From positions 1,656,001 to 1,720,000 of the forward strand of contig JACATO010000306.1 in assembly GCA_018389105.1 (NCBI GenBank): 64,000 nucleotides of DNA, written 5' to 3'. This document shows positions 9,801-63,074 of this stretch, one piece after another. The stretch is from Nautilus pompilius. Its lineage: Eukaryota; Mollusca; Cephalopoda; Nautilida; Nautilidae. The position numbers were made by a program, and so were the translations under genes. Within the stretch, counting starts at the first letter, position 1; the number at the start of each line of letters is the position of its first letter. Under the pieces are notes generated by a model. It did not search any database and was not told the origin of the DNA. It was given only the letters and a program-made list of their open reading frames with translations.

Positions 9801-12361
9801 AGTTAAATAGATATGACAGGACACTGTAATTTGGTTTCTCACTACATATTTTATTTAGCATCAGTCAGCTGAGTGCAACCCTTCTCATCAATATACAAAG
9901 TAATTAACATTTTATTATTATCATTAATATTTATTCATCTCATAAATATTTATTTGATTTGGCATGTTGCAAATTAATTCTCATTTTTATTCCTGCATAC
10001 ATTCAGTTTTGGTTTCCAAACTAAATTACAATTTAAGTAAAAAAATGTTCTTAGGATTTTACTGGATTGCTACCGATGAGTGACAGTAGTACTGGATACT
10101 GACCACACCACCACAGTACTTGTGTTGTTAGGCAGGAAAGATGTTGCAAGAAAAGGTTGTTGTTCTTTTTGGTTTTGATGGAGGAAACCCACAACCATTT
10201 GGTGAAGAAGAATGAGAAGAAACCTTACTAGAGAGATAAACCAAACCAGGTTTACTCCAGCTTGGATCTGAACTCAAGCCCTCAACCTTGGCTATTTAGC
10301 AGTCACCATTCTAGAATTTTAAACATGCCTATTTAGGAATGACTGATCTTTATTTAACAAAGTTTCAATACTATTTTGAAATGCTACAATATTATATATT
10401 TTATGTATATACGAGGTCTGTCGAAAAAGAAACCAAACTCGGTGACCTTGACCTTCAGTCTAATACTAGCCAAATCAAGCCACATCTGTTAGTCATCAAT
10501 CTACACGCGCTAGAGTGAACGTATGTTTAGTGCACTTGGCGATTTGTCACAAGTTGAACAATGAAGGATCTCGAAGAGCAACGTGTTTGTGCGAAATTCT
10601 GTTTCAAATTAAAAACTTTTACGGAGACTTTTCTAATGTTGTAACAGGCCTATGGGGAGGATTGTTTGAGCCGTACGCAATGTCATGAGTGGTACCAGCA
10701 TTTCAAATCGGGAAGAACATCCACTGAAGACAATCCCAAATCTGGACAACCTTCCGATCACATTGAGAAAGTGCGTGCTCTGATCTGTGGAAATCGTCGC
10801 CTGACTTTCCGTGAAGTTTCCGAAGAAGTAGGCATCTTCTGTAAATGTTCGTGCCACATGATTTTAAAAGAAAAATTGAATATATACATCATGTAGCTGC
10901 AAAATGTGTGTTCCCAAAGTTGAAACCCACCCTGAAAGGTCAATGATTTCAGACAATAGAAGAGATCAAAGAAAAATTTGCTACGAGAACTGTGCACTAT
11001 CCCTGAAAACACGTTCCAAAACTGGAAAAAACGTTGGGAGCAGTGTATCGACAGTGGAGGGAACTATTTTGAAGGAGAAAAGTCTGATTAAATTGTAATT
11101 AAAACAACAAATTTGTTTTTTAAAAAGTTTGGTTTCTTTTTGGACAAACCTCATACGTGTTTGATTGGCAGTATTGTTGTTTTCTTTAATCTACAGTCAG
11201 AAAAGTGCAAAATACTAAGAACATCCTTGGTTCAGGCACCATTAGGCAAAGCTATTCTGGCTGGAGCATCCCTAGTACAAATAGAAACTGCTTCAATAAC
11301 CATGATGTTCTTTTGATCATAAGAACATGGAGGAAATTCTAGTTTACAGCAGCAGAATCACTGGATGATAGTAGTTATCTCCCACTAAGATAAGATAAGA
11401 TAAGATCTGCATGACAATCAAATTTTATAACAATTCAACCAATAAAATACTGAATATGGGTAAAATGTGAGACTACCAATGTTTTTTCATTTTTTTTTTT
11501 AAATAGATCAGATGGTGAGCTAAGGTTGAGGGCTCAAGTTTGAATCCTGTTTGTGAACTGATATTGTGTCTATATACAGTAGTGAAAATAATTATGGGAA
11601 AAAACAGGATATTGACAAATAATGAATAATTACAACTGAGAGATGTGCATAATAAATACACAATGCATTACAGAAAAATATACAAAATTCCTGGTTTCTT
11701 CTTTTACAGCTAGCCATGTGGGTTTCTTCTCACATTTAAAATCCTTTGTTGTCTACTATTTCTCATTACAGTAGCCAGTCCCTTGCCCAATTAGCATAGG
11801 AAGGGTTGAACATTTGGTCTCATAAATAAAGCAACTGGTTGCTGAATCAGAACCAGACTGGGTTTCTGCTTTATGTGCCACTTCTGGTATAGAGAGACAA
11901 ACAAAATTGTAGTTTGCAATAAGTAAATAAGATGAAACTTACTGGAGAAATTTGGGAATTTTGTCATACATAGAAACCTCAGAATTCTTATAGGCTTTCA
12001 CAAGGCTCTTGAACTTCATAGACTTTTTGGCTTTTGCATTATTTCCTGCTAGATGGACATATTCAGAGGAATCCTGTGGTATATAAACTGAGAGAAAATA
12101 CTCATCATTCCAATGATGAAACGCAGGTGATATCTTTGCTGCTCCTGACATTAGGATTGGCTTTAATGGAGTGAGATGGTCATTTAGGAAAGTTTTTACA
12201 TCAGGAAATCCTTCCACTTTTTCTAAAACTTGAATGAATTGCCCAAAACCAAAGGACTTCAGATGCCCCGGTAGTTGAGATAACTTGTGTGATCTGGTAT
12301 TGATAGCTGTGATTGCTGACAGCCCTTCAAGGAAGCAGAGCATCAAATAATGAAGCTTCAT
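865..12361 (-). CDS. JmjC/cupin_8 paralogue A, probable pseudoenzyme (six exons)
   Basis: Spliced gene on the minus strand. Exons, in coding order: 12361-11943, 5300-5234, 4797-4675, 3708-3671, 2819-2727 and 1063-865. All joins are GT-AG and the frame stays open for 939 nt (312 aa plus TAA). The start was chosen at MKLHYLML because a signal-peptide-like hydrophobic stretch follows; an in-frame ATG lies 7 codons upstream. The N-terminal part (LPGHLKSFG, SGAAKISPAFHHWNDEYF) and the core (GDCIYIPHRWIHQIRSYG) match copy B and cupin_8/JmjC enzymes. The first iron-site His of HxD is Leu175 (LID) and the lysine expected to bind 2-oxoglutarate is Gln190 (GEQRL); the distal His249 remains. So catalysis is unlikely although the frame is intact. 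The last exon reads past the point where copy B splices and ends VNHIK-stop, with no EF-hand or RDEL. That 3' end is the least certain part: further exons could lie left of the window. Confidence 0.75.
1484..2049 (+). other. Unrecognised open frames, possibly a decayed transposon
   Basis: Two open frames overlap here (1484-1681 and 1675-2049), in the intron between exons 6 and 5 of JmjC copy A. The region is less AT-rich than its surroundings and contains no plausible splice context. I recognise no domain; it resembles transposon debris by composition only. Confidence 0.25.
6476..7483 (-). mobile_element. Degenerate Tc1-like transposon
   Basis: Minus-strand fragments carry Tc1 transposase signatures: an N-terminal stretch KQPGRLSTMPPLD near 7220 and the DDE-region text ILQGDGATCHTS near 6760, in broken frames. 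The left end is CAGTGATCTGCCATAATAAT after a TA; the right end (CTG before TA at 7484) is weak. It lies in intron 1 of JmjC copy A. Confidence 0.65.
7566..8732 (+). mobile_element. Degenerate Tc1-like transposon, near full length (1167 bp)
   Basis: TA-flanked ends CAATATTGGCAATAATTATG (left) and a matching right end whose reverse complement starts CAGTAGTGGAATTATGG. The plus strand holds broken Tc1 transposase pieces: FTDESKFELFGNNQ-like coding near 8040, ENDPSHTASVMKNYPE near 8310 and TLDEFLIGLHDIYNNIPQ near 8475. Frameshifts and stops show it is dead. Confidence 0.75.
9189..9612. mobile_element. MITE related to Tigger/pogo (424 bp)
   Basis: Long inverted ends begin CAGGTTGAGAATCCCTTATC and CAGGTCGGGAATCCCTTATC, followed by CGAAATTC-type text, each flanked by TA (9187-9188 and 9613-9614). 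The end sequence strongly resembles the mammalian Tigger7/MER44 terminus as I remember it. The interior is non-coding and includes a CpG patch near 9490-9530. Confidence 0.75.
10190..10315 (-). repeat. tRNA-type SINE copy
   Basis: The minus strand reads a tRNA-like box (GAGTTCAGATCC) and then the family core CTGGTTTGGTTTATCTCTCT...GGTTTCTTCTCATTC...CTTCACC. The same core recurs near 27170, 54600, 55540 and 62140. Confidence 0.5.
10412..11153 (+). mobile_element. Internally deleted mariner element (742 bp)
   Basis: Ends CGAGGTCTGTCGAAAAAGAA and TGAGGTTTGTCCAAAAAGAA (reverse complement), flanked by TA at 10410-10411 and 11154-11155. It encodes the mariner N-terminal helix-turn-helix (SRTQCHEWYQHFKSGRTS, then KVRALICGNRRLTFREVSEE) and the C-terminal tail (FQNWKKRWEQCIDSGGNYFE). 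The catalytic D,D centre between them is missing. Confidence 0.85.
11389..11408. repeat. (TAAGA)n microsatellite
   Basis: About four tandem copies of TAAGA in intron 1 of JmjC copy A. Confidence 0.7.
11500..11576 (+). repeat. SINE head cut by a Tc1 fragment
   Basis: Reads GGTGAGCTAAGGTTGAGGGC followed by CAAGTTTGAATCC, a tRNA B-box-like motif shared with the SINE copies. It is interrupted at 11577 by a Tc1 end; SINE-like text (GGGTTTCTTCTCAC) resumes near 11710. Confidence 0.4.
11577..11690 (-). mobile_element. Fragment of the 7.6-8.7 kb Tc1 family
   Basis: Starts CAGTAGTGAAAATAATTATG after TA and matches the reverse complement of the right 110 bp of the element ending at 8732, including the ACTGAGAGRTGTRCATAATA segment. 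It is truncated after about 114 bp. Confidence 0.7.
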
Positions 12362-15261: not shown

Positions 15262-18200
15262 TTAAAGTTCATCCCTCTGCATTTTTGCATCATTACTATC
15301 TTCCTCCGGTAAAAATTGCTTGCCACTTTTCATTGCTGAGAGATTTTCCAAAATGCTGGTTATTTCTGATGTCATGTCTGCCAATTTTTCCCAACCCTTG
15401 AAGAAAACAGTTAAGAGGTTGTAGTAGATTTAGCCACCTCATCTACTCTGAATTCAAAGAAATGAGTTTTGTATGAACTTTTCTTTCTTTTATGTGGTGC
15501 TTGCGTGTGCATGTTTATCTCCGAGGAGAAGGGTGTGGAAGTGGCCAAAGCCAGGTTTTGAGCAAGTTCCCACAAGGGCCTAAAAGGCCGTGTTGAGGCG
15601 CCAAAGCTCCTCGTTTAACTGGCTACCGAGGCACAAGCACCCCATGTTAGAGTGATCGCTTCCCCAGCCAAAAAACCAATCTTGGGGAAAAGGCCTCAGC
15701 ACGTCAAGTCTGAAAATCGGTCTCAACCCCCTTAACCTTCCCAGCCAGATAGGCAGGCCAAAGGCAAAAAGTGCCCCTGGCTTCCACTCTTTTCAGGTAG
15801 AGGACTTTCCGTCTACAAAAGCTACTAAGCAGATTATCTCCAATGAAGTTAGTTTATGAGAAATAATTTCAATGACCACATGTTTGTCACAGGCTTAATA
15901 AAAGAAGTCTAAATTGAAACAATAGAGGTTGATAGAATCAATACAGGCATACCTCTGGCAACGAAGTGGCTATGTTTGCGAAATCCACTTCATTCTCAGA
16001 AACTTCAGTGTCAGAGGTAGTTTTGACATGAGGCAAATAAAAACAGATTCCAGTCCTTTGTTGCACACTGTACAGGTCCAATAAATAAAGCATTATCGTA
16101 GATATACCTTCAATAAAATAGAAACACTTACTAGTGAATTACTGGAGCTTGCATCACTATGTTTACCACCATTGTCAATAAAAAGAAGGGAAATGTTGAG
16201 ATATATGCAGGTTGTTAGGTTTGAAATGATGACTTTTTTTTGATGGACTGGCAATGCATTCTCATTGGATTCTATTAGTTTATCTTTTTTTTGGGGCCTA
16301 AAATTTAAAAAAGACAAACTTCATAATAAAGCAGCTTCGTTGCCAAAGGTAAACTTGTACTTTTCACAACATTGTTTCCATGGAACATTAATACATACTG
16401 ATCTAAACTCTCCATAGAAAGAAGTTTTTGGCACAAAAGGCTTTAATAATAATGTGGGACTGCAACCTGAACAGGCCAATGACAGTGATGGCAATCATCC
16501 CTTAGAGTTCCTGAACTGACTGACACTGTGTGTGGCCAGATTAAAGAGGAAATAGTAATGGGTTTTGAACAAAGAAGTGGGAGTATGAGTTTCCAAGGTT
16601 GCTTAGTTCTAGAGAAAATAACTAATACTACATTCATTATGTACAGTGGCATGTAGAGGTTCTTTCCTCAATATGAACACACCACACAAGGACTGCATTT
16701 TTTTTGTGGAGTATATTTTAAAAAAAAGATCATAAAAACCTTCACCTCTTTTTTCATATTTAATACTTCTTCTTCAGAGATGATATTATTGTTATTCACA
16801 TCAAATGTTGAAAACATCTAAAAAATAAAATAAAACATTAAATAAATAAATTATACTTGTACATTACAACACAGCTAGTTTGGTTGAAAAAACTTAAAGA
16901 AATCCATGTGGTAGATGAAATCAATCTAATTTCCCAAAGTGTGTGTTTGTGATAATATTTAAGAATGTAGGTTTTTACATGTAACAGACAATAGTATTAA
17001 TACCTGTTTGAAAAATTTGACGAAGTCATCTTCTGAATTGATTAAGACAAATTCTTCAGGCTGAAAATTTAAGGAAAATATATTCTTGGGAGAAAAAGCA
17101 TGAAACAATTTTCAATACAGTGGAGAAAAAATAAGTTTCACTTTATTCTTAAGTAAAATATTTCACACTGATTTTGCAAGTTTCTGTGTGAACATGTCCA
17201 AATATAAAGGGCCTCTACTAATTTCTTGAGAAGATGCTATAGAACAATTCTACAAGATAAATAATAAACAAAAAAAAATTTCAGGTGTTTAAATAATTTT
17301 GGCAACCAGTGCATGCATATTATGATTCAGAAAATTCCCCAGCTGCAGAAGTGCAAAGAGAGGGAAACAGAGATGTCCAGTAAGACTTTAATAGTGGGAA
17401 TGGAATGTGTTGTTGAAAGAACAGTAGTGACTGTAAAAGATTATCTTAAGTCTAATGATACTTTCATGTGCTTATGGAGCTTTTACCTGAGCCAGTCTGT
17501 TAGCTTAATGACACCTTTCCTGACACAATGGATTTTTCAAACCCACACAAGACAATGTTAAAATTAGATTAGGGGACATTTGTTACAGATGTAAATTAGT
17601 TAAATTACCCTCTTCCAAAAATGCCATAATGGTTAATTAATAACTGTTAAGCTGGAATTTTAACAAAAGCCACTACTTAAATTTACATGGACCAAATAAC
17701 TAAAGAAAGGGCAACTTGTCATCTGTATACTTGAAATAAATTGTGCATTCCACCACATCACTATAATGACAGCAAATTTTAGATGATATTCTGAATTAAT
17801 GCAAGACATTACTGGTTGGATTAGCTGGAATAAGAGGTTAATTAGTACTTTCATTTAAAAAGATCCAACCTGGGCAACCAGTAGCAGCATATCAAGTACT
17901 AGCTGTAATTACCCTGTTTTACTGCTGTATTATCTCTAAGCATTCTCACTGATAAAATACAAATAACTAGTGTGTGCCTGCTTTTCATCCCAGCAGCATT
18001 AGTCACATATGGTTGGTGCTTCCAGGTCAACTCAGCCTGTGTAAGAGATGAGTACTGGTACAGACAAGACCTACACCACCTCATCTTGTCCCAGCCTAAA
18101 AATAAAAGAGACTCTTTGTCAGTTACTTCATGAAACCTTTCATAAGAGTGCAGGAAAGTTAGCTAGTGAAACATGGAGCTGATCCTTTCATTATAAGACT

Positions 18201-21200
18201 ATCTTCAGAATAAATAAAGCAAATAAAATAAGCACTAATTACTTTAGGCAAGTATACTGGCTATTCAGCAAATGCTACAGTATAGATGATGACCTTTCAC
18301 ACTAACTGCTGGCTGGTTGTAATCCCAGTCCAGAATAACAAAATGCACCTCCTTACTTACCGTCAAAACACTTTCCATAAAAGTAGGGAAGTCCAATGGT
18401 TTTCTATTATCTAACAAATCAAAGATCAGGTCTCTGAAATTATTTCAAATCAAAAAAAGTTTTAAAGTTAAGTAACAAATTTATCAATTTACTGGCATCA
18501 TGTGTTTGTAAACTAAGATGGAAAAAGTATCATGACAAAAGGGTCAGCATTCAATGGACTCTCATTTCTCCCATGGTTTCAGATATACTGTGTTACCTCT
18601 AATTCTTTCCACCATTAGGCTACATTTGAAACTCTCCTAGAGAATTTGACAATAGGTAAGTGTTGGAGACATTGCTTACACAGGATGTGCAAGATACCTT
18701 CAAACTCCAGAGTAAATCAAAAGCATACATCTGTAATTTAACAATGTGCACTGTGGTAGTAGAGAGTTTGTCCCTTGACTAGGTAAGATTCTGTGAATTT
18801 TGTAGATACAAGAAAATCTTGTACTTGAGGAGAAAAAAATTGATTTATCCACCAACTAAGCAGAAATTTAATGGTTGACTGCCCAAATATAAATCCTAAT
18901 CAGTGCCTGGCATTGTTTCAAAATTTCTTTCCATGTCTAGAAATGAAGTAGGATTTTCTGTCTGTGCATGTAGTAGAGGTTCTGCAGCTTGCACTTGACC
19001 ACTGCTCAAAAGCCTCAGCAGTACCTCAATAACTACTTGCTTGGTCATCAAGGCTGAGACCACACAACCTCACTCCAAGCTGTGACATGTCCTTAGATCT
19101 AGGTAGTTTGCAAAGACAGACCATTGACTTAGCCATTTAAACTGTGCTGTCACAGAAAAATCTAAACTTGCCAATAATATCTAAGTATTTCATTGCAAAA
19201 AGAATCTTTTTGTGACTGGGGAAGCATTTCTGAATTTTAATTTTAAATACAAATAAGAACAAATATTTTATGGGGGGGAGCAGATAGAGGCATACCGCTT
19301 CATTCAAGTTTCCAGTATAAGGGAGATAATTTGCATAAGCTTTAAACTTTAATTCATAAAGGAGCTTGCAAATAAAATTTGTAATATTTATGTAGAAAAA
19401 AAAAAAAAAACTTTAAATTTTAAAATAAAACTCCATGACAAACTTAGTTTCACCTAACACTCTTATTCCAGGAAAGACGTTCCTACAATCTTTGCAGAGC
19501 AACTGAAACGGGTGTTCTCTCAAAAGGTAATAAACAATAAAAATGAAGAAGAAATATTCAAACATCAAGGCTCCATCTATTAAAAGTTTACTTTAGGATA
19601 AAAAATAACTGCTATAATTTATGAATAGATCTGGGGAAGATCAAGAATGACATGAAAAATATTAATGTTTCACTTCTATTTGAAAGATTTGATATACCTG
19701 ACAGAATCTGTATCAGCATTCTCCGTCTCTTCCTGAAACATGTCCTGTGACAGACTGAGACTTTCATTACAAATATTGTCACATTTATCTGGTTCAAGTA
19801 TTTTACTTCCTGCACGCATCCACCACAAGTTCACCGCAATATTACTGCCATAAGATCGAACTTGATGAATCCTGATGAAAACAAACGTGTGAATTTAAAT
19901 ATTTTTATAAATGGTTTTACTATAAATAAAATATACAACTGTTAAAAGAAAATATTTTGTAGGAAAAACTTGCACACTGTCAAAAGGCTTCAATTATATT
20001 TTCAAATTATTTGAAAATCCATCAACTTTTCAGACTCAGACTTATTTTTTAAACAAATATTTTGTGTTGTATCACAGATTCTAGCTGCAACCTATTGTTA
20101 AGATTACACCTATAAACATCACTAGCTGATCTCTGCATTCCATCTTGTGTACACAAAGCAAAATGCAAAGAACGTTTGAGTACAGAGGGACATCCAGCAA
20201 ATGTTTTTGCACTGTTAGAATAACCAAGACAGTTCAGGTCTCAGTGCCATTTTAAGCCATGAGAGAGAAGCTATAACCAGTAATGGTGCACTACTATTCA
20301 GAGACATTCTGCAACTGGCAGACAAAAGAAAAATCATCCCTAACATCAGCATTTAAGCAGAAAAGCAAAGTTAACAAGCTCAGGATGGCACTTGGACATT
20401 AATTGCAATATTCTCAGCTAAAACCATATCTGGGCATTTAAAACACCAATCAGTTTCATATCAAACATGTGGAACAAGCATTTTACTGCAGCAGTAACTG
20501 TTTCTAAGAGTAATCCTTTATCTTTCTTTTGAGATAGAGTTGCATTGAAGTGGCTGTTGACTGGTCTCGTACAGGTAAAATAAGTAGTTTTAATGAAAGT
20601 AAACTGTAATAATTCAGACAAAAGATGGACGGGCACAGGAGAAACAATGGTAATGATGGCAAAAGAGAAAAGTAACTTAACCATTGCAGGTTATTTTTAA
20701 AGTCCATTATATTGATGCATATTATGAATAACTTTTTTCCCTCCTTTAAATACAGCATCCATGAGTAGTTTCCAGTTTTCAAGATTTCTCCCCTCACAAA
20801 ACCCTACTATGCACAGGTTTACTTAAAATCAAGTGTAGTAGGACCAGTTACTATTATGAATGTTTCTATTTTTAGCTGGATGAGCCTCAGGAAAAGAGAA
20901 ACACTCTTAAGCTTGCACACCTAGTTCTGGGAAATTTAGTCCACAAGAAATACACCAGATCTTTTATGCATTTCTACAGTGTGTGGTAGGTAATATATTA
21001 ATGTTCACAACCTCATTTGTAAATTTTTTTTAAAGCAGCCAATTTCACTGTAAAACATTCTACTCAAAAGATTTTCTCTAGATCTGTTATCTCTACGGAT
21101 CACAGGATGCTTATTTTTATCTGCTACAAGTTGATACTAACCATTTATGTGGAATGTAGAGGCAGTCACCCGCTGTGAGATTAACCTGAATGTATTCTAC

Positions 21201-24200
21201 ATCAGCCAGACCAGGATACTTTGTATAATCCACCCTGAAAATCAACAATTCTTTTTTTTAATTTTGAACAAAGAACGAATTGTAGTAAACAGCTTCCATA
21301 GTAGTCATTATGCTGTTGGAGATATTTAAAACATAATTAGTCAGAAATAAAGGAGCTCCCCAACATGGAAATCCAATCTGCAGGTGAGCTCAATTCTGGT
21401 TAATATAAGCAACAAAGCAAGTTTCCCTAAAATAGATTTCTGAACAATGCAGATTCCTTTTATCTTGCCCTTTTCTATCAAAAGGAAGTAGTCTTAAAAC
21501 AACAAAGATGAGAAAACAAAGCATTCAGATAAAATACTAAAGGAAAAAGAAAAAAATTCAGAAAAATGCTAATTAAAGGGCATAACAGGTAAAGGTACAC
21601 TAACTAAATGTTGAATTTAAAGTTCTTGGACAATGTAACAAAACACAATTAGAAAAAGCAAAGTTCATAAGAATCAGAGGTTCACATCTAAAGAAATTGG
21701 AATTATTTAATTTTATAGGAAGTAAAGTGCTTTCATGTCCAACTACTGTGTTAGACCATATAGCTAATAATCAACAGGTTTGAGGAAGTTGTGCTGTTTT
21801 CTGTCATGACATTTATGAAGAATCCTTTGAACATGGGCTTAGATTCACAGTGCAACATTTGGTAAGTCACACAATTGATGGTATTTATGCAGTCTCAAAA
21901 AACCGATCATGATGATACAGTGCACAACAGCTCAAGATCTTTAACAATCTGATGATTAGATGAATGGGAAAGTATAAATTTTTGGCATTCTTATCATGCA
22001 GAATAAACAAAGTTGGCAGGTTACACATACTGTGTTTAGGGATACTCTACCTTAGCAGTTGTGGGGATCTCTATCACATAAACCACAAAACCTCTTACAT
22101 AATAACAAAAATATTTTCAATTTGTAGCCTTAAAAACAATTTTTAAAAAAATTAGATTTGAAAATAAATGAATTAAGCAAGTTCAGCTCCACCAGCTGTC
22201 ACGATGTTGCCAAATTTAATGTTGATGGAATTAACTAAACCAATATCCAGGAGCCAATCAGGTAACAAATTTCATGCAATCTGAACACTACATTTTTTAA
22301 ATAGTTTCAGAAACTCAAACACTCAGCTTTCCTTTCCTTTTTTTTTTTTTTTTGGAAAAGGAAAAAAAAAAGTTAATAAATTTCACATATAGCGTTTAGA
22401 GTTTCTCTCATTTCAGGCAAAACAAAATAATAAAAAATTAATGTATAAATTATCTATTTTATTGTTTTTTTACCTTTCTACATCAACTGCTGAGAATGCA
22501 CCATACGGTCTGTCGATATCCACCTGTAATTAACGAGAGGAACAGATGTTACACTGAACAATGGCAAGCGTGCGTGATATACTTTTTTTCCTGTTTTATT
22601 TCATTTTCAAAATTTAAACATATCTGAAAATTTCAACCACACTCCAAAGAACTTCCTAAAATTTAACATCTAACAATAAAACTCTACTATGAACCAATAA
22701 TTAATAGTATTTGTTAATATTAACTATTTCCAAACAGTTTATTTAGTAATTTTTTTAAAATAATTCATTATAATCAGACAACTTTCTACAATTTTTTTTA
22801 GAAATAAGTTGCATTAAATAAAAATATTTTTATTTCTATCTAAATTCATTAAGTAATGAAATTTGTGTAAAGCATTCTTGAAAACCTACTTTTTTTCTAA
22901 TTGATTTGCATAAGATTCAGAGGCTGATTCTAGTAGATAAACTCCATATCTGACTTAACTGATTCCACAAATGTACACCTAGTCAGAGAAAGCACACCTG
23001 TATGTGTGTGTGCATGATCTCTCCAGGTGAGAAAGAGGATGGGATGGTAGTTTTCCACTTTTTTTTTTTAAATGCCTACTTAATGGCAGGAAAGCAGCTG
23101 AGGGAAAATAAATCCTACAAACCCTCCAGGTGATTAGAGTATAGATGGAACATGGCATGCTGGAGGAAAAACCAGGTGTTGCTAAAGTTCCCTACACAAT
23201 AAACCAGTGAGCAATGATGGCAAAGTGAAATTTCATTAAAAAAGTAAGTAGCCTTAAATAATGTCTGCAACATCACACAGACAAAAAAGCAAGCACCATT
23301 TTTACCATTAATATATATATATATAGCACACATACATGTGTTGATCCCATGACAGATCAACTTTTAAACAATTAAGGATAATAAAATCAGTCATTTTTAA
23401 ATAAGAAAAAGGAGAAAGATCCTATAGAAGGAACAAAAATATGTATCAGAATGGAAAATGTCAATAAATAGAAATAAGGTAAAATGATATATATCTCTGC
23501 CATGCTACACTGCATCCAATTCCTAATCTTTTGTATTTTGAAAGGTAGCTTTCTTCATGACCACTGGAGTCTGTTAATACTAGAAATGTTCATTTAAAAT
23601 CTGACTATAATAGCATCGCAGTATTGGTATCTGGCCAAATTTTATTTGAATTGGGATTGTTGTTCCAAAGGAGTAAAATATCCATTTCTCAAAATGATCA
23701 AGAAAACTAATGATCCCAATTCCCCAGACCAAATCATTCTAAGGATGCTAATGATTCTATATCTATTATAGCACTCGTGCATTTATTCTTCAGGTTGTGT
23801 ATGGTTTGGGGAGAGCTTATTTTCTTAAATTCGAAGTCCAGCAAAAGTTAACAGGAGATCTCTGCTTAATGACTGTAATTAATAGCACCATGAAAAGTTA
23901 ACTACACCTTTAATTGGTATTTTAAAAAGTGACATCTCTTACATCACTTGTTTTCTACACAGATTCAAAGGCCTCACCTTATCTTTATACTTTGATGGGT
24001 CAACAAAAATCAGCTCCTTCTCTCCACGAAAAAGGCAGTTCATATTCTCATAGGAATCAGTGTGCACAACAGACTGTGTCCCTCCGCTGCTGTACCACAT
24101 TATCTATTACGAAAATAAATCATCATCATCATACACTTCCCAGTTACGGGGTTTGAAGATCTCCATCTCGGTTACATCAGGAATTGTGTGCTAATGTACC

Positions 24201-27200
24201 AAGTAGAATGCATGATAACCACTTCTTAGCATAGGCGGCCATGAGCGAAAAAGGTTTAACATTAAATCAAAAGTAGTCTTTTGTCAGACAGTAGATCGTC
24301 ACAGTCAGCTGCACAAATGACTCAGCTATCTTTGAAATACACAAATGAGAGAGATTTCATTTTGCTTTGGTGTCACATCAATCAAATCATTAGCATTAAA
24401 TTTGTAAGAAATGGTGAGCCCTGTAAAAAATACCTGATAAATGCAGTGCTGTGTAAGCTGAATGTTACTATGACAACACAACTTTGGTACCAGCTGGGAA
24501 GGGAAAGGCAAGAAAACTGCTATCATGATTTCTGAAAGCCAAGTATCTGTAGTTTCTGAATTTAGCAGTTTTCTGTAAAATTATGAATCATTTTTGTATG
24601 CACCCTCATATACAAGAATCCTCTTTTTGGTCTTAAAATTGCCATATTATATGATGCCTACTGTGTACTTAGGAAAACTCATAAATAATATTTTAGAACT
24701 CCCTCTATCCCCAACAGCTACCAAGGGGTGGGTCTGGCTGATAGATTATACTGTAAATCGTAATATATATTTTGCAAAGTAAATCAATGAATGAATTTGT
24801 TTTATTATTTTAAAAGAGTATAAGTGATTGGAAGAACTGTTCCAAAATAACACAATGATTCACAATCATATGGTTTAGCAATCATCTTTATCAATGTTAT
24901 CTTCTTCAAGATGATCCTAGTTGGTTGGCTTTAAATTGGTTCTTATAAACTTAAAGAGTGAGCAGGTTTTACTTTCCACATCATCATATGAAGCATCATT
25001 GGTCAATCCAGTATTTTTCTTTTAGATTCTTCATAACAGGATCAGCAACAGTGTACTCCAGCTACCACAATGGCAAGATATGGTATTGCACAAATGTGAA
25101 CAGAATGAAAAAAACATTAGTTTTTAGTAAACAGGATATATTTTAAAGACTGGAACAAACTTTAGTATTTGATATGACCACCTTCAGCTTTAATGCTGCC
25201 TTGTACATGCTTGGACATGGAATGCAGCAGTTTTTCACAGATATTCTTTATTTCTTCATCATGAAACCAAACTTGGATGACAGCAGACCTGATTATTTCT
25301 TTAGTAATCCAGTTTTGAAGTAGTACAGCCCATAGATTTTCAATTGGGTTTATATCTGGCAAGTTTTATGGCCAATCTAAACAGTTGATATTGTACGTCT
25401 GAAGTATTTCTTAACATGGAGCCAGATCCTGTTGGAAAACGTGTTTGGGAATATCTTCAGCAGTCCTGGTTTTGACAGTGTTCTAGAACCTCAATATATT
25501 TCTTACTATTCATCCTGCCTTGCAAAGGGACTAATAAGCCAGTTCTTTGTGCAGGAAAACCACCCAAACAATCTCTTTTCTGGATACCTCACAGTTTGAT
25601 TATAGTGAGAACTGCTTGTAGGTTCACGGTGTACAAATCAGCATTGTTGAGCTTAAGCAAGTAAATGACTCATTTGAAAATAACACGTTGCTCGGGCCCA
25701 TGCATAACATTTTGTCTTATTTTTGTTAGTAATTGTTTTTTCATAATGTTTCTTGGTTTGGTGCCCCACCTCAATCAATCAACACCTTACAGTTGATGAT
25801 AATACTTGAACACCTGTTGCTGTGAATTCCTGGTTAAGCATGTCACTAGTTTTTCTGGAATCCTGCTCGGTCATATTAATTTTGCATTATCTCTGAGTGG
25901 TGTGTTGTTTTCTTCCAAAATTTGCCTTTCTTTGATAGGGATATTGAGCCTGTGATTTGTTTCTTCTTAAGGATCTTATTGACTGCTCCCCTACTAACTT
26001 TGAGTTCATTGGCAATTTTCTTTGTATGAGAGGTGTGTGTTCATTCAAGGTGATTATTTAAGTTCTTTTCCTTGGGTCATGTCCATCTCTTAAAGACAAA
26101 GAGAACAGATATCATATGTTTGACTCTGGTAACTGACAGATTATAACTCAGGCAGAAACTGAATGACAAGCCCAATATTAAAAGATGGCACAGTAGTCTT
26201 GGAAGATGATGCAATCATTTCAAAAGATGACAAAACAATGCATTATATACCATAAATAAATGCTTCTTAATAAAAAAAATACAATATTTAAAAAGCTTTC
26301 ATTGTTTTTTCATTAAACAGTCTGAATACTTGATGCTAGTTCTGCAGTAGTTGAAAGTGGGTTTGTTGTTAGAATGTCTAGAAAAATGTAAACAGATTTT
26401 GGTTGAGCAAACTGTCAGATTTGGAGCAGACAGGACTAGGATCAACTTTGGCAGAAGAAATTCAATCACGACCAGAATTCAGCAACTTATGTAGTTGACC
26501 TGTCATCTGTCCATGTCTCTCTCTGGACATCAAAAGCACTAACCAACCAGCATTTCTGGTGTTGATGATGTGAAAGAAATATGCATTTGACATGTGCTAC
26601 TACTTTCAAAAAAGCACAAAAAAAAGAGAGATTCAATGTTACTGGAGTTCTCCAGGTAAAGTATAGGAGGGGAGGAAGCAAGTCAATACCAGATGATTGA
26701 GATTAGAAATGTATTTGACTTTAAATTTATTACGTCTATGTAACAGGGAACTTTTATACCAGTTCGAAACAGTAGCTGGAGATAAGAGAGATGTTCAAAA
26801 GGCCAAAACTAAATCACCTTATCTCCATTGTTTATTTCAAATTTTTGTCCTACATTAAAGAGATAATCTTGAATACTGTAGTTGTTTAAGAACCATTAAT
26901 TCTTATGGTAACATGTATGTACAAACGATATCTATATGTAGGCCCCCCTTTCTCCTCGCTCAAATTAATCATTTTCAAGAGCTCGGTAAAATGCCTTTAC
27001 TGAGGAGTCTGGCAGAAATAACTTAGCTCACCAGTCATAACAAGCACAGTGCCGTGGTTGTCCATTAGAGCTCACTATTCTCTAGTACTAGGGACCAGCA
27101 CTGCCAACTTAGGCAGGAAAATCCTCAATAAAATCCACATAACCCAGCTGGTGAAGAAGGGCAAGAAGGAACCCCACCAAGGAAGTACACCAAACCAAGC

Positions 27201-30200
27201 CGTAAGTCCAGCAGGGGAATCAAACTCCAGCCTCCCAGTCCAGTAAGCTAGCCACTGCCAACCCGCACTGTTCAGTAGCCCTAACTCTGACTAAACTTCA
27301 ATAAATTTAAATCCTTCATCCTCATCATCAAGAGTCAAGGGCCCATGGTGCTTAGTAAACCATAAATCTCAGTCACTGGCTTCTGCAGAATAGAAATTTA
27401 TTATGTACTTATATATTTTTTTTTAAAAAAAGATAAAATTTAAATATTATTTTATTTAAAAATTGCTCTTGGTCTGGTCTGGTCTGGTCTGGTCTGGTCT
27501 GGTGTGTTTGGGGTCGCTATGCTAAAAATTATTTGAAAAACTTGATGCTATGACACGCCATAGGAATAGTCAAGTTTTTATACTTTCAAGTATACTCACC
27601 ATTTCCAAAAAGGGAATCTTCAATAATAGCATGCACTGCAAAGGGCACGGGACTACAACATCTTGTCTGCATTTTAAAAAAAGTAAAAAATAGTAACTTG
27701 AGTAAAAGTAGACTACATCAATGATCTAACAGGGGTATTATGTTTTGGTTAGCACAGCCATTTTTGAAAAAATAAAAATAACATAACTAAAATGTATCTG
27801 ACCATTACAATTAAACTGGAGAAGTTTTCTTTTATTTCTAGTGTTTTTATAAATCTAACTTGAATGATGCTTCTTCTTCTTCTTCTTCAACAGCCAGTCA
27901 TGCAGGTTTCTTCTCATGTATAAAGGATGAAAAGTTCAAGTCAAGACTTTCTACAGTAAGCATATGGCTAACCTCAGCACCTCATTCTCCTCCTCGCTGA
28001 AACCAGAGGGGTTTCGTGTGGTGGATGCCTTGTGTGCCCACAATGAGTTTGAAGTAATGTATGCCAGATTCTAACAAAGAATACACAATGTTCACTATCA
28101 ATTTTATCACACATAAAAGTTTCAAAACACTTTTCCTAAACAAGCAGGTAACTAAGCTATAACTTGATTCATATTACCTAGGGGAACACTATTAAGACAG
28201 TAGCACCCCTGGTGACAATAAAATTATAGTAAGGCCCATAATCTTTTTGTGCTTATATTTCCAATGATCTGTGATGCAGGCTGCTGAACCTTTTGTTTGA
28301 GCTGCAAGTTACTCTTGTGACACAACGTTCATGTAGAAGTACAAGCTATACAGTACACTTATCTCCAAAGATAATAATTAAAATGGTCTTTTAAAACAGT
28401 CAGAGATAACTTTAGCCATACCACATTGAATTCCCGATATCATAGTGCCGTGTCTAAACAATTTGAGGCATTTCTTTTGTTCAAAAGACCATGAACTGAG
28501 ATCAGTATTTTAACAAACTGCTGTGAACAGTGATACCAAAATTACATCACTAAAGCTGCCACTGCAGGTACCAGTAAAACAAAACTGGTCCAAGCTCTGC
28601 ACCTCGCCCAAGATTTTAAAAGTATCTGGTTCAGTTTATAGCAAACTTAGCATGGCCATTTCAGGAAATTAGGTCACCAAGCATTAGCCTGAAGTGTCAG
28701 TGCCTCAAATCCACCTGGCCACTGTATCATATAGAGAAAACTCTATCCTCTTGGCCAAAGCATCTTTGCAGAGATAGACTGTACAGGATGGTCCAAAAGT
28801 CTGGGTACCCCCCCCCACACACACACACACACACGGTTTTTCTTCGTAGTGTTTAGATATCATTAATAAGTGTGGGCAGTAATAGGTCGCATTTACACAA
28901 ATTGACAAGTTATGCTGCACAAAATATCCCACAGGATCTGGTGCTGGATCATTGTGTCACGAAAATGATGGTTGTCATACTGACTCTCTGGATCCTTAAA
29001 GAGGACACCCTCTCTGATTGTTATGTACTAAAGCACTTGTATATACATCTTGTCCCTTTTAAACATGCATTACAGCTTGTACCACCCTATATCCATGTTA
29101 CAGTCCTGTGTGGCAGGGAAAGGGGGGACAAGACTTCTGGACCACCCTGTACGATGTGGGTCAGTTATGAAATAAATCTCACTGAAGTCAAAATTAGTAC
29201 CTACATTTAAAATTGAGTGTTCTCCGTTATCTAAACATTTAGATCTCGCACCAAATGACAGTATTAGTTGAGCAGTAAATTTGCAATTTTATACTGCAGT
29301 GATCATGATGTAAAGAAAACAGGCAGGCCTACAATATCATGAAACAGGTAAGGCTGAATACCTAGATACAACAAGGCATATCAGCTGTTATCTGTTCGCA
29401 CAGTCAAGTTTTTTTTTAAAATACTAATTGATGAAATTCCTATAAATCATAATACCTTGGCCAAACTGTGAAAATCAATTATTTTCTATCTTTTTAATGA
29501 AACAGTCTTATTTTGAAGTTCTATAATCTCTCTTTTCAGCCAGCTTACAGCACACCTTTTGTCTCAAAGAGTGTTTATTACATCTTAATAAAACTCTACA
29601 TCTATGGAAAAATAAGAAGCTGAATTTAAAATATAACTAACATGATTATTTAAGATTTGGGAATTCTGTACCTACTAGCACAAACGCAAGTATTTTCATA
29701 TACTACAAACTATTTGTTTCTCCTCTTCCACTGGTCATTTTGTCATGTCTAATTAACCTAGATAAGTCATCTGGAAAGTATGTACCAAACAAAGACACAC
29801 CTGCTCCTATCTTATCTACACAAACAAAAATCATTATTGTACTTAAGATACAAAAGGATTTAAAATGAGGAAAATAGAGCATGTAACATATCAATGTGCG
29901 CTAATGAATTATCTGCAGAAATATTCAAAAGTGTGAAAACATGAGAGAGAGAAAGTGCTGCAGCCGACAGTCACTCAAATTATATATGTATTAAAAGATA
30001 AAGAACAAATATTCCAAGGTGTGTGAAGTGTATGTAGACTGGCAATCAGAAATTCACCACTAATACTACTACATGATTTCAATCCCCCCCCCTCTTTTGC
30101 AAAATTTAAAAAAAACAATGTTAGCATTAATCTTTTTCATGTCAGGTTTTGTTTACTTTTCTTCTGGCTGACATCTAAATATTTTCCAGAATGCAGGAAA

Positions 30201-33200
30201 AAGCTACATGCTAGGCCCTGTAATAGTATTCAACAGACAACAATGTAATTAATCATTAAAAACTACACAGTTTGTTAATTAACCTTCAGCATGTAAACAG
30301 ATTTTAAAATAACAATTTTACACCTACCATTATTTCTAAACTGAGTGGCCATATTTAAATGCAAAACAGGAAACCAAATCAATTTCTGACTGTAAATTTA
30401 TTTCAACGACAATAGAAATATATTTAATAACAGCATAGCCCATTAAAAAACTTTTATTTCTAGAAATCAAAATATTTTTATTCTGTGAATATCAGCCTTT
30501 CATCTGTTTTGTTTTTGTGATTGGTATAGTGGGAAGTAAAGGCTAAAGAAACTATCTTTTTCCTTGCTGCTAGGGGGCTCTAGTTAAATCCCACGGTGCA
30601 ATCAGGTGTGATGCTTGCTCACAGTAGTACATACCTTTGCTTTTCTTTGTTGAAAAACTCAGTTGAAAGTTAACTTTCTTATTCTTTGTTGAAAGAATTC
30701 TCCCAAACTCTGACAGTTGTGTTCTTGAAGCCTAACAGTCACAAAGGCCAATTCTTGCCTATGCCAAATAGTAAAGAGAGCAGTCAGTGCTAGTACTGCC
30801 AAAGCACTGCTTGCATAGATGGAGAAAATATAGCTTCTCTCATGTTTCTGCATTTCTCAGCATCTCTGATCTTTAAAAAGAACCTGTGGTATTCTACTGA
30901 ATCTGATTAGAGAACTAAAGTAAATGGATTACTACCAATCTGTAAAAGAGAACCTACTACTGAAAAAGAAAAAGATAAGATGTTGTTTTAACACAGTCTC
31001 CACTTCCTTGTCGTCCTGTGAAAATATTCTTACAGCAGCAGGCAGGGTGTCAGAAAGTGACTTATATAAATAGTCCTAGCTAAGAAACTCCATTGGCCGT
31101 TGACCTAAATAAAAACATCTGGTTTACAGTTATTAGAATTTCAGGAAAACTATGCAATAATTAACATCCTAGTTACAAGTAAACAGGTGAGTGTAAATGA
31201 GGTTGGGTAAAAAAAACATGTAGTTAAGGGGAAAGATCCTAAGCTCATTTGTTATTGTATAGAATGGGAAACCAAAACTTGATGCATCTGAAATGAAATT
31301 AGCTGTTAAGAATAAATTTATTCACCATTACTTAACCTTCTGTATACCAAATGTCCCAAATCAACTCTTACTTAAATACTATAAAATGCAAAAAGTTAAA
31401 ATGGAGCAACTAAACATACTATAAATCAGTTCTAAAATAAGAGTGGACGGTTATTTCAAAATTATATCATGTAGATACACTGGCTTACAACTTTATTAAG
31501 ACCTATATCTTGAGTCGGGCCACTTTTTTTCTCAAACAACAGCCATGACACAAGATGGCATGGGATCCACAGGGTGTTAAAAAGTATTTAGTATATTTCC
31601 CTATTTGGTTATTTGTATGTAATATATGGAAGGAGGTAGACAAAGAATAGTGATGGTGAATGTGTCTTTCAATTTCATCTCATAAATGTTCAATTGTATT
31701 GATGTCTGAGAATTGTGCTAGCCATTAAAGATGCCTGAAATCTCTGTAATGTTCCTAAAATCAAGAAAACAATCAATGTGGCTATAGTGGATGGGAGCAT
31801 TGTCATCTTGAAAATAGCCATCTTCATCAAAGCATCACTCAATGCACTTGAATGGAAATGATGCTAAGCTTTGGCATTCATTTTGCCTTCTAAAGAGACC
31901 AAGGGGTTCAGGGCATGCTAGTAAAACATGCCTAAACCAAGATTCCAACACCAGAGACTTGGATATCTAGGACCTCAAAAAATGGGTTGAGTAATTCGTG
32001 GCTTTCTCCAAACCCATCTTTCCCCATTTGTACAAAAAGGGTGAAAAACAACTCGTCAGACTATATCACTTCTCACCAGTCCTCTTTAGTCCAACGTCTG
32101 CACTCCTTACACCACACAAGGTATCTTTTCAAGCTGGTAACCAATCAGTTGTTTATGCAATGGTCTCCTACTGCCATAGTCCAGTCATTCATTCATTACA
32201 TCGTTCTTCACAAGATATAGCTGGATATGGATGTTTCTGTCAGTTGATCTATCCTATCGTGTCTAACTACCTTTCTCCTTTGTCACTACGTTTGTGGCCA
32301 CAATTTCCCCCTTCACAACAATTTTTTTCACCTTTATGACATAGCTGACAAACTCGCATGACCAATGTCTTGGACCAGCCTACCAACAAAAATGTCTTCA
32401 TCACTGTGGCACCTGCTAGATGTACACCCATTTGTGCCTCTTTTGAACACTGTAATGTCCTTGTTTTTTCCCCCCCAACATCTAGACTGACTACAAATAT
32501 GCCTTTCCACATCATAGAGATCATCTATTACATCATGTCGTCAACCTAATTTGCAAATGCAGCTCAAATCAGGCCCCAAGTCCAAAAAGGTACATAGGTG
32601 CTAATAAGTGGCTAGCTTGTGTATATATTGCTGACAAATTAAAAATAAACTGATACAATTGGAATTTTCATTTAAAAAACTACTTTTTTTGCAATATAAA
32701 GATGTTCTTCCAGTTTTAGAGCTGCTTTTGTAAAGAGTGATGGAAAGTTTATTTAGCCTCAATGGTTTACAACGTTTTAAAACGAATTAACGTGTTCAGG
32801 CTGTTGAAGGTTTCATTTCTGAATAAAGACAAGTGAAGTCAGATTTTTCAATTATATTATGTATTAGGAACCAAAATAGAGAGCAATGTGCGTCATCAGA
32901 TTGATTTTATTTCTGTACTTATAATTCCATAGCATCCACCTGTGTGCAGTAATCTCTGCTGCTACAGTTGTTTATTTTCAATTAATATTCTATCAGTCTA
33001 ATTATGTAAAAAAAAAAATAATTCTGTCGAAAGCAAACTGGAGGTAGGGTTAATATTTTACCAGAAGTAGGAACAAACAAATGATACAGATCCTTTATTA
33101 AGCAAATATCTGTTATATCCTGCTACAGTAACCAAGGTCGGAACCACTCTAATACTTATCAATAGACTGCATTAGAAAGGCCGAGGCCTTCTCTCTCTTT

Positions 33201-33708
33201 CTAATGGAGTATACGTCAAATTGAAGTGTAGCCAGTTTACATCCAAGACAGAGAGAGATAGAGAGATAGAGATAGAGAGATAGAGAGATGATACTCACTG
33301 GAGAAACACAGGCAAATTTTGAACCATATAAATGTCCGAATTATTGTAGGTTCTCACGAAGTCTTTAAAGTCCATAAGTACGGTTGGTTCGCTTCTGTTC
33401 TCCTTCTTCTTCATCTCCACCACGACCTCCTGGGATATGTTGGACGGGATGTCCATCGACAGAAAATACTCGTCAGTCCAACGATGGAAAGCCGGAGACA
33501 TTTTCGCGGCCCCTTTCATTTTCACCGGCTTCAGGGGTAAAACGTAATTCTGAAAAAAGCTTCGGGGGTCAGGAAACCCGTCGATTTCGTCCAGGATTTG
33601 GATGGGTCGGCCGCTGCCGAACGGCTTCAGGTGCCCAGGCTCCTGGGTCAAGTCCCTGTCGCCAACAGACCATCTAAAAAGAGACAGCAGCAAGCAGAAC
33701 TTCTTCAT
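15262..33708 (-). CDS. ER-lumen JmjC (cupin_8) oxygenase with EF-hand, copy B (ten exons)
   Basis: Minus-strand exons in coding order: 33708-33299, 27666-27600, 24103-23978, 22523-22474, 21234-21142, 19871-19698, 18433-18361, 17060-17004, 16817-16746 and 15396-15262. All are GT-AG and total 1257 nt (418 aa plus TAA). Residues 1-12 (MKKFCLLLSLFR) resemble a signal peptide. Residues about 25-265 form a JmjC/cupin_8 fold: iron ligands H173 and D175 (VVHTDSYEN) and H251 (LYIPHKWIHQVRSYG), with K188 (RGEKELIFVDP) placed like the 2OG lysine of FIH-type enzymes. Residues 356-367 (DVNNNNIISEEE) are an EF-hand loop with D, N, N, S and E at the calcium positions. The protein ends QRDEL, a KDEL-type ER-retention signal. 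Sequons lie at N90, N104, N122 and N284. Inferred role: 2-oxoglutarate/Fe(II) hydroxylase of the ER lumen, possibly calcium-tuned; the substrate is unknown. It sits head-to-tail upstream of copy A. I do not recognise a named orthologue. Confidence 0.85.
15478..15835 (-). repeat. A-tailed retroposon, 5'-truncated copy
   Basis: The minus strand matches the copy at 63075-63560 over about 350 bp, including GGAAGGTTAAG, TGCTGAGGCCTTTT, GGCGCCTCAAC, CCCTTCTCCTCGGAGATA and a CACCACATAAAAGAAAGAAA tail. It inserts an extra segment near 15675. It lies between the last two exons of JmjC copy B. Confidence 0.65.
15944..16357. mobile_element. Tigger-like MITE (414 bp)
   Basis: Ends CAGGCATACCTCTGGCAACG and, reverse complemented, CAAGTTTACCTTTGGCAACG, flanked by TA. 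CAGGCATACCTC is the classic Tigger-type end. The interior is non-coding. It lies in the last intron of JmjC copy B. Confidence 0.65.
17119..17310. mobile_element. Possible short Tc1-type remnant
   Basis: The right end, reverse complemented, reads CACTGGTTGCCAAAATTATT, the standard Tc1-type terminus; the left end CAGTGGAGAAAAAATAAG follows TA. The two ends match only partly. Confidence 0.35.
25140..26320 (-). mobile_element. Degenerate Tc1-like transposon
   Basis: The minus strand encodes the Tc1 C-terminal signature MPDINPIENLWAVLLQNWI and ends HVQGSIKAEGGHIKY, as in Tc1 transposases. Further broken coding extends to about 26100. It is inserted in intron 2 of JmjC copy B; the element ends are not clear. 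Confidence 0.75.
27000..27295 (-). repeat. tRNA-type SINE copy
   Basis: Minus strand: tRNA-like head GGCAGTGGCTAGCTTACTGG with a B box-like GAGTTTGATTCC, then core GGCTTGGTTTGGTGTACTTC and TTCTTCACCAGCTGGGTT. This is the longest copy of the family in the window. Confidence 0.6.
27472..27503. repeat. (GGTCT)n microsatellite
   Basis: Six to seven pentamers, about 95 bp from exon 2 of JmjC copy B, in intron 2. Confidence 0.8.
28784..29149. mobile_element. Mariner-type MITE (366 bp)
   Basis: TA-flanked inverted ends: CAGGATGGTCCAAAAGTCTG and CAGGGTGGTCCAGAAGTCTT. It contains a C-run plus (CA)n at 28808-28834 and no transposase. The end sequence fits the mariner-like CAGGGTGGTCC type. Confidence 0.75.
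29150..31477. other. Intron 1 of JmjC copy B, unannotated part
   Basis: AT-rich intronic DNA with short chance frames; I see no exon, RNA gene or repeat that I can name. Confidence 0.4.
31478..32621 (-). mobile_element. Degenerate Tc1-like transposon with CACTTTATTA-type ends (1144 bp)
   Basis: TA-flanked ends CACTGGCTTACAACTTTATT and, reverse complemented, CACAAGCTAGCCACTTATTA. The minus strand carries broken transposase text (GRSKTLVMRVCQLCHKGEK near 32400). It is closely related to the plus-strand copy at 58531. It lies in intron 1 of JmjC copy B. Confidence 0.7.
33249..33290. repeat. (GAGATA)n microsatellite abutting the exon 1 donor of JmjC copy B
   Basis: A GAGA/GATA-rich run ends at most 1 bp from the intron side of the splice donor at 33298; on the coding strand it is a CTCTAT-rich tract starting near intron position +9. 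Confidence 0.8.
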
Positions 33709-62806: not shown

Positions 62807-63074
62807 GTAAGTATGCCTCTTTTTTGTCTGGGCAAGATGATGATATCTTCACATAATTCATTCAACCCTCGCTTGCTACTACTACCTTTATGGTAAACAG
62901 GTGTTAGCATTTTCACTGACTCTCCCTCCAACTCTTGGTTTCCCAGAATTCTCTGAATGCACTCTGCAGCAGTGTGGATGAGTTTTCTGTGCTTGTTGAA
63001 CTTGCAAGTTGCCATCTGCTGGGTGAACTTTTGTTGTTGTTGTCATTTATTGCCTATCACTTGGCTGTTGTAGA

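Follow-up and report, generated by a model that had tools for sequence, protein, structure and literature searches.

Here, we have analyzed a 64,000-nucleotide stretch of Nautilus pompilius DNA (G000:C297:1656001-1720000, within a 728-Mb assembly; hereafter the window), which carries on its minus strand a gene, designated gene A, that codes for a JmjC domain followed by an EF-hand-like tail and a C-terminal RDEL. Judging from sequence, we put at roughly 60% the probability that its product is a soluble Fe(II)/2-oxoglutarate (2OG)-dependent JmjC hydroxylase that resides in the endoplasmic reticulum (ER) and has a calcium-binding EF-hand tail, and that it belongs to a four-gene family (A-D) in which B and D would be non-catalytic. 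Gene B lies in tandem with gene A, and genes C and D were identified elsewhere in the same genome. All four proteins (410-428 amino acids) follow a common plan of N-terminal leader, JmjC domain and EF-hand-like tail, with pairwise identities of 24-38% over aligned positions.

Gene A encodes a JmjC domain with iron and 2OG residues

Ten minus-strand exons (33708..15262) were rebuilt from the DNA, with all nine introns bounded by GT..AG and phases that match, and their spliced translation gave a product of 418 amino acids ending in MQRDEL. This confirmed the gene model of the original prediction, and the features that it had named (H173, D175, H251, the EF loop at 356-367 and RDEL) were all found in their places. 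The profile search that it had suggested for JmjC/Cupin_8 was also run: Cupin_8 matched residues 48-268 of A (E 4.4e-34) with 119 bits versus a curated Pfam cut-off of 27.4, and the scores for B, C and D were 74.4, 127.4 and 83.5 bits, respectively. Before splicing, four single frames gave matches, three of them to Cupin_8 and the fourth to the EF-hand, the latter below its cut-off. The frame enclosing exon 3 (E 6.6e-08) was the one above the Cupin_8 cut-off; the frame of exon 1 alone (E 2.8e-05, 24.6 bits) and the frame enclosing exon 5 (E 2.4e-05, 24.8 bits) fell below it. It should be noted that gene A may have a different 5' exon, since its start codon lies directly 3' of an AG in the DNA. 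The exons are as follows.

33299..33708, minus strand: exon 1, with the start codon, leader MKKFCLLLSLFRWSVG and the beginning of Cupin_8
27600..27666, minus strand: exon 2 (CPLQC), with a homologous exon in gene B
23978..24103, minus strand: exon 3, with HxD (H173, D175), S170, N179 and K188
22474..22523, minus strand: exon 4, from the spliced model
21142..21234, minus strand: exon 5 (GDCLYIPHK)
19698..19871, minus strand: exon 6, with the distal iron ligand H251
18361..18433, minus strand: exon 7, with what we read, by motif and from alignment with B, C and D, as a degenerate first EF-hand-like helix-loop-helix (LLDNRKPLDFPTFMESVL)
17004..17060, minus strand: exon 8, encoding the helix that leads into the second EF-hand, with a candidate homologous exon in gene B
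16746..16817, minus strand: exon 9, with the EF-hand loop DVNNNNIISEEE (EF-hand_1 20.5 bits, cut-off 25.4)
15262..15396, minus strand: exon 10, C-terminus with RDEL and the stop codon, from the spliced model

The closest solved structures were those of JMJD5/KDM8 (E 2.5e-15 with A and 2.2e-25 with a profile of A, B and C), and JMJD7 was the next-best group (E 3e-13 with A). In JMJD5, the iron ligands are reported to be H321, D323 and H400 and the 2OG ligands Y272, S318, N327 and K336, and substitution of H321 or W310 by Ala leads to loss of activity (PMC5862942; this and the other papers cited here are represented by excerpts of their texts). JMJD5 H321, D323, H400, S318, N327, K336 and W310 correspond to H173, D175, H251, S170, N179, K188 and W162 of A. 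The same seven residues occur in C, whereas B carries L, D, H, S, S, Q and W in this order. In D, read off the alignment by eye, all three iron positions are H, and the asparagine and lysine are replaced by Ile and Arg, respectively. As for the tyrosine, JMJD5 Y272 pairs with Y127 of A in the HMMER alignment and falls at a gap in the MAFFT alignment; visual inspection places Tyr here in C and Ser in B. A therefore holds the HxD...H triad with the 2OG lysine (K188) and asparagine (N179), and the tyrosine (Y127) by HMMER only. Because the iron and 2OG residues are kept in A and C and lost in B and D, the former two are predicted to be active and the latter two are not. The active-site reading of the original prediction is thus supported for A by comparison with JMJD5 and extends to C, and we infer that both are catalysts.

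Tandem paralogue B and the family members C and D

A tblastn search of the window with A returned a chain of weaker matches on the same strand between 12283 and 910, which represents gene B. It is arranged head-to-tail with gene A, its start (12361) being ∼2.9 kb past the stop codon of A, and 30 kb past the window edge were taken to complete it. Its exons are listed below.

11943..12361, minus strand: exon 1, with the leader and the beginning of Cupin_8 (tblastn E 6e-31, 47%)
5234..5300, minus strand: exon 2 (tblastn and splicing)
4675..4797, minus strand: exon 3, with HxD lost (L175, D177), N changed to S181 and K to Q190
3671..3708, minus strand: exon 4 (splicing)
2727..2819, minus strand: exon 5 (tblastn and splicing)
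869..1063, minus strand: exon 6, with H249 kept; its donor was picked by phase among three listed
C297:1654656-1648334, minus strand, outside the window: exons 7-10, including the EF-hand

Exons 7 and 9 were picked up only weakly by tblastn (E 0.064 and 0.037, respectively), and the search for exon 8, exon 10 and the donor of exon 6 took the phases of A as a condition. Exon 8 had the top score among 15 listed candidates. The last exon was selected from 103 phase-0 candidates by its likeness to exon 10 of A and its good acceptor, and one candidate outscored it; the C-terminus of B, which lacks xxEL, is the least certain part of the model. The resulting protein has 428 amino acids and ends in DTAAE.

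A and B share 154 identical residues over 409 aligned positions, and their final models agree in the alignment column and phase of all nine introns, which argues that the gene A model is better than chance. Five of the nine (exons 1-6) follow from tblastn matches within the window; the other four are weaker evidence, because the phases of A had served as a search condition. Over 305 aligned codons, which contain neither a stop nor a frameshift, synonymous differences (pS 0.76) were saturated and non-synonymous differences reached pN 0.35; this count was based on the first gene B model, which ended at a stop in exon 6, included a few codons that were later dropped and excluded exons 7-10. Since synonymous change is saturated and non-synonymous change is not, B has long been kept as a gene, and a pseudogene was rejected on the basis of these values and the intact frame. 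A gene B that ends at the exon-6 stop and has no EF-hand was also rejected, since a donor was identified for exon 6, along with exons 7-10 and the EF loop. It is probable that B is a pseudo-oxygenase, in which the iron and 2OG residues were lost and the frame, introns and EF-hand conserved.

A genome search with A identified exons on another contig (gene C), and a search with the gene C protein identified exons on a third (gene D), so that the family has at least four members among the best candidates listed.

C308:3406609-3416915, plus strand: gene C, seven exons, 410 amino acids, with leader MARKERVLLSVFLLVAGLWPTS, H178-x-D180...H257, EF loop DRNANEVLTWQE and C-terminal KTEL
C2019:1725783-1737550, plus strand: gene D, eight exons, 419 amino acids, with candidate leader MSVSERLHVYCFCVVCSLVGAVG, HSH replacing HxD, a degenerate EF-like stretch and C-terminal RVEL

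An extra exon between the last two of gene C is possible and was omitted, since the phases join without it. The first exon of gene D is one of four candidates that passed a filter on hydropathy; it is supported by its phase and by the motif GHLRPLG, the family form of which, located after the leader, reads GHL.(P/S)(F/L)G in A, B and D and GRMTPLG in C. Exons of gene D were also matched on C2314 with equal scores and spacing, perhaps representing the other haplotype. The original prediction had overlooked the tandem paralogue, although it lies in the window, and, as the genome was not available to it, the members with broken active sites.

A separate JMJD5-type gene is present in the genome (L001, C638), so A-D do not qualify as JMJD5/KDM8 orthologues. 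Its match to A (E 6.6e-17) compares with E 1e-46 for A-C and 3e-32 for A-D, and each of the four is nearer to the other three than to this gene. No family was matched in an NCBIfam search with A. A further JmjC gene (G000:C656:796316-793384, L037, minus strand) was observed, with a hydrophobic leader MKACCCRWLVWLGLFCLSGSDL, a Cupin_8 match in a large exon (E 4.8e-27) and a long N-terminal part without a Pfam match; it may represent an additional JmjC type in the secretory pathway.

ER residence, calcium binding and alternative readings

Three of the four proteins end in xxEL (RDEL in A, KTEL in C and RVEL in D). The background was measured on open reading frames (ORFs) that end in a stop codon preceded by at least 20 residues, in six frames of 174 kb (the window, its flank and the regions of C and D). 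xxEL was found at 14 of 5748 ORF ends, a count that includes A, C and D, and [KRH]DEL at a single one, that of A; the pattern [KRHQSA][DENQTV]EL, which was written after the tails had been seen, occurred at three ends, namely those of A, C and D. Listed ER tails include RDEL (ERp44), KTEL (AGR2) and KVEL (ERp27) (PMC12781119), and KTEL is reported to keep AGR2 from secretion (PMC12384036). A table in the latter paper gives the ERp27 tail as KTEL, and RVEL could not be found among the ER tails listed in the excerpts of either paper (PMC12781119, PMC12384036). In addition, four cysteines line up in A-D and the three that fall within the JMJD5 fragment are non-Cys there, which fits an oxidising lumen. 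The leader, by crude hydropathy, was clearer in C than in A. We take the gene A product to be a probable ER resident, a reading with good support.

Canonical 12-residue EF loops have D at position 1, D, N or S at positions 3 and 5, a hydrophobic residue at position 8 and E at position 12. The loop of A (356-367) satisfies this rule, with N at position 6, where G is usual; so do those of B (DKDKNDILTKQE) and C, which align with it, and the loop of D is degenerate. A profile of the A, B and C tails matched calmodulin in PDB (E 7.1e-5). The case for an EF-hand rests on this match and on the canonical loops at one aligned place in three proteins, and the tail would be expected to bind calcium.

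Several observations weigh against such a calcium-binding ER protein. The EF-hand profile match that the original prediction had called for was present at 348-371 of A but below the curated cut-off (20.5 versus 25.4 bits); the best EF-hand scores of B (19.4 bits) and C (13.4 bits) were also below cut-off, and D had no EF-hand match in the Pfam profile search. Gene B lacks an ER tail. With a crude hydropathy measure (best 8-mer, compared with 479 Met-started 30-mers of the window), the short leader of A scored 2.81, a value equalled by 8.1% of the 30-mers, and so appears unremarkable by itself; that of B was weak (equalled by 40%), and that of D is not independent evidence, because the filter for its first exon itself required hydropathy. 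There were six N-glycosylation sequons in A, none in B, two in C and one in D. Moreover, no relatives outside the genome were found in viral_contigs (searched with A and with an A/C/D alignment) or genome_contigs (A/B and A/C/D); these are viral and prokaryote collections, and the absence thus says nothing on animal orthologues, unnamed examples of which are likely to exist.

Alternatively, A may be an ER JmjC hydroxylase whose EF-hand is only structural, always filled at ER calcium and without regulation, which we consider a credible, if less favored, possibility. P4H-TM offers a precedent: it binds calcium with a Kd of 23 μM versus 100-800 μM in the store and would thus be saturated physiologically; calcium shifts its near-UV circular dichroism, and the role of the binding is not fully understood (PMC7948501). 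The loop of D is also degenerate though the remaining plan is kept. On the other hand, with an overall identity of 27-38%, A, B and C still agree in N at loop position 5 and in the calcium-ligating residues at both ends of the loop, and the saturation of P4H-TM could alter on store release (PMC7948501). Considering the degenerate loop of D and a P4H-TM EF domain that binds calcium without a settled regulatory role, the 'calcium-tuned' part of the original prediction is not established, whereas the ER location and the JmjC-plus-EF-hand architecture were strengthened by the plan common to four paralogues and by xxEL in three of them. It seems unlikely that members of the family mainly serve, without catalysis, as binding or folding factors of the ER (a role proposed for JMJD8), with the triad of A being a relic or conferring low activity. 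Two of the four members have lost iron ligands and their reading frame survived, and gene D has the same His-for-Asp change as JMJD8, which is linked to folding (PMC5684140); however, A and C have only 110 identities over 379 aligned positions and yet both retain the full iron triad together with the 2OG Ser, Asn and Lys, a pattern suggestive of selection for catalysis.

A JMJD5-like hydroxylase of the cytosol or nucleus, with a leader and RDEL that are coincidental, would agree with the best solved relatives of A (JMJD5 and JMJD7) and with its short leader, but it is very improbable given the separate JMJD5-type gene, the closer similarity of A-D to each other, the clear leader of C, the candidate leader of D and the three xxEL tails. 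We see hardly any chance that unrelated open frames were wrongly joined into this exon chain. The window has 35.8% GC and is rich in open frames, and the shortest exon has 50 bases, which could favor such an artefact; yet the introns of B coincide with those of A in position and phase (for five, this was found without imposing the phases of A), and the spliced proteins align along their length.

Under the preferred reading of A as an ER-resident hydroxylase, the product would enter the ER through its N-terminal leader, be brought back by KDEL receptors via RDEL and carry out Fe(II)/2OG-dependent hydroxylation of a side chain on secretory or ER proteins. The C-terminal EF-hand pair (one degenerate, one canonical) would bind calcium at the high ER-store level, and the bound calcium would most likely stabilize or gate the catalytic domain; B and D, with iron and 2OG ligands lost, would probably be non-catalytic partners or binders. 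The gene models, JmjC domains, active-site residues, C-terminal tails and shared introns can be read from the sequence itself, and ER residence, catalysis and calcium binding are inferred; the nature of the substrate, calcium regulation and the role of the dead members are guesses on our part. A bolder and rather doubtful extension is that calcium-store-sensing ER hydroxylation evolved in an animal lineage independently of P4H-TM, with the activity of A and C on secretory proteins following luminal calcium and the dead B and D competing for or presenting substrate.

Other features of the window were as follows.

43272-62853, plus strand: hnRNP Q/R (SYNCRIP)-type gene, represented by exons that match the hnRNP_Q acidic domain (E 2e-20) and RRM (E 1e-13), the outer limits being our reading of open frames
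10645-10893, plus strand: transposase remnant (Mos1-type HTH_48, E 1.2e-5) between A and the second exon of B
25879-26040, minus strand: paired-like helix-turn-helix piece lying within a gene A intron (PAX match of 20.1 bits, under the cut-off), perhaps a Tc1-type transposase remnant

Comparison with known JmjC proteins and ER oxygenases

JMJD5 and JMJD7 are cytosolic or nuclear enzymes. JMJD5/KDM8, an arginyl hydroxylase, resembles A in its JmjC/Cupin_8 core, HxD..H and the equivalents of Ser318, Asn327, Lys336 and Trp310, and JMJD7 is, like the proposed A, a JmjC hydroxylase; to our knowledge, a leader, EF-hand and ER tail are all lacking in JMJD5, and JMJD7 lacks the latter two.

JMJD8, which clusters with JMJD5, JMJD7 and others, reaches the ER lumen via a signal peptide and was reported in 2017 as the first JmjC protein there (PMC5684140). 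It is described as JmjC-only, in agreement with the original prediction, which had cited it as an ER-lumen JmjC protein without an EF-hand, and the terms EF-hand and KDEL do not occur in the excerpted text of that paper (PMC5684140). Its iron Asp is replaced by His, and the authors suspected that it is possibly neither a hydroxylase nor a demethylase (PMC5684140); a later paper reports it as a demethylase (PMC9820096). A differs from JMJD8, as described in these excerpts, in having D175, an EF-hand tail and RDEL, whereas gene D resembles it at the metal site.

P4H-TM is, like the proposed A, an ER 2OG oxygenase with a calcium-binding EF-hand pair, but it is a membrane-anchored prolyl 4-hydroxylase and not a JmjC protein (PMC7948501). 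According to the excerpted 2020 paper, its EF-hand motifs are found in no other characterized 2OG oxygenase (PMC7948501). The original prediction knew of no characterized member combining an ER JmjC protein with an EF-hand, and none was found in our literature search either, most subscription journals being outside its scope. The family of A would be an addition to the JmjC hydroxylases that joins ER residence with an EF-hand. If so, a comparison of active with dead paralogues of one genome could test whether protein hydroxylation is under the control of ER calcium, and the family would represent a second, independent case of a calcium-binding ER hydroxylase, in which both traits are joined within the JmjC family.

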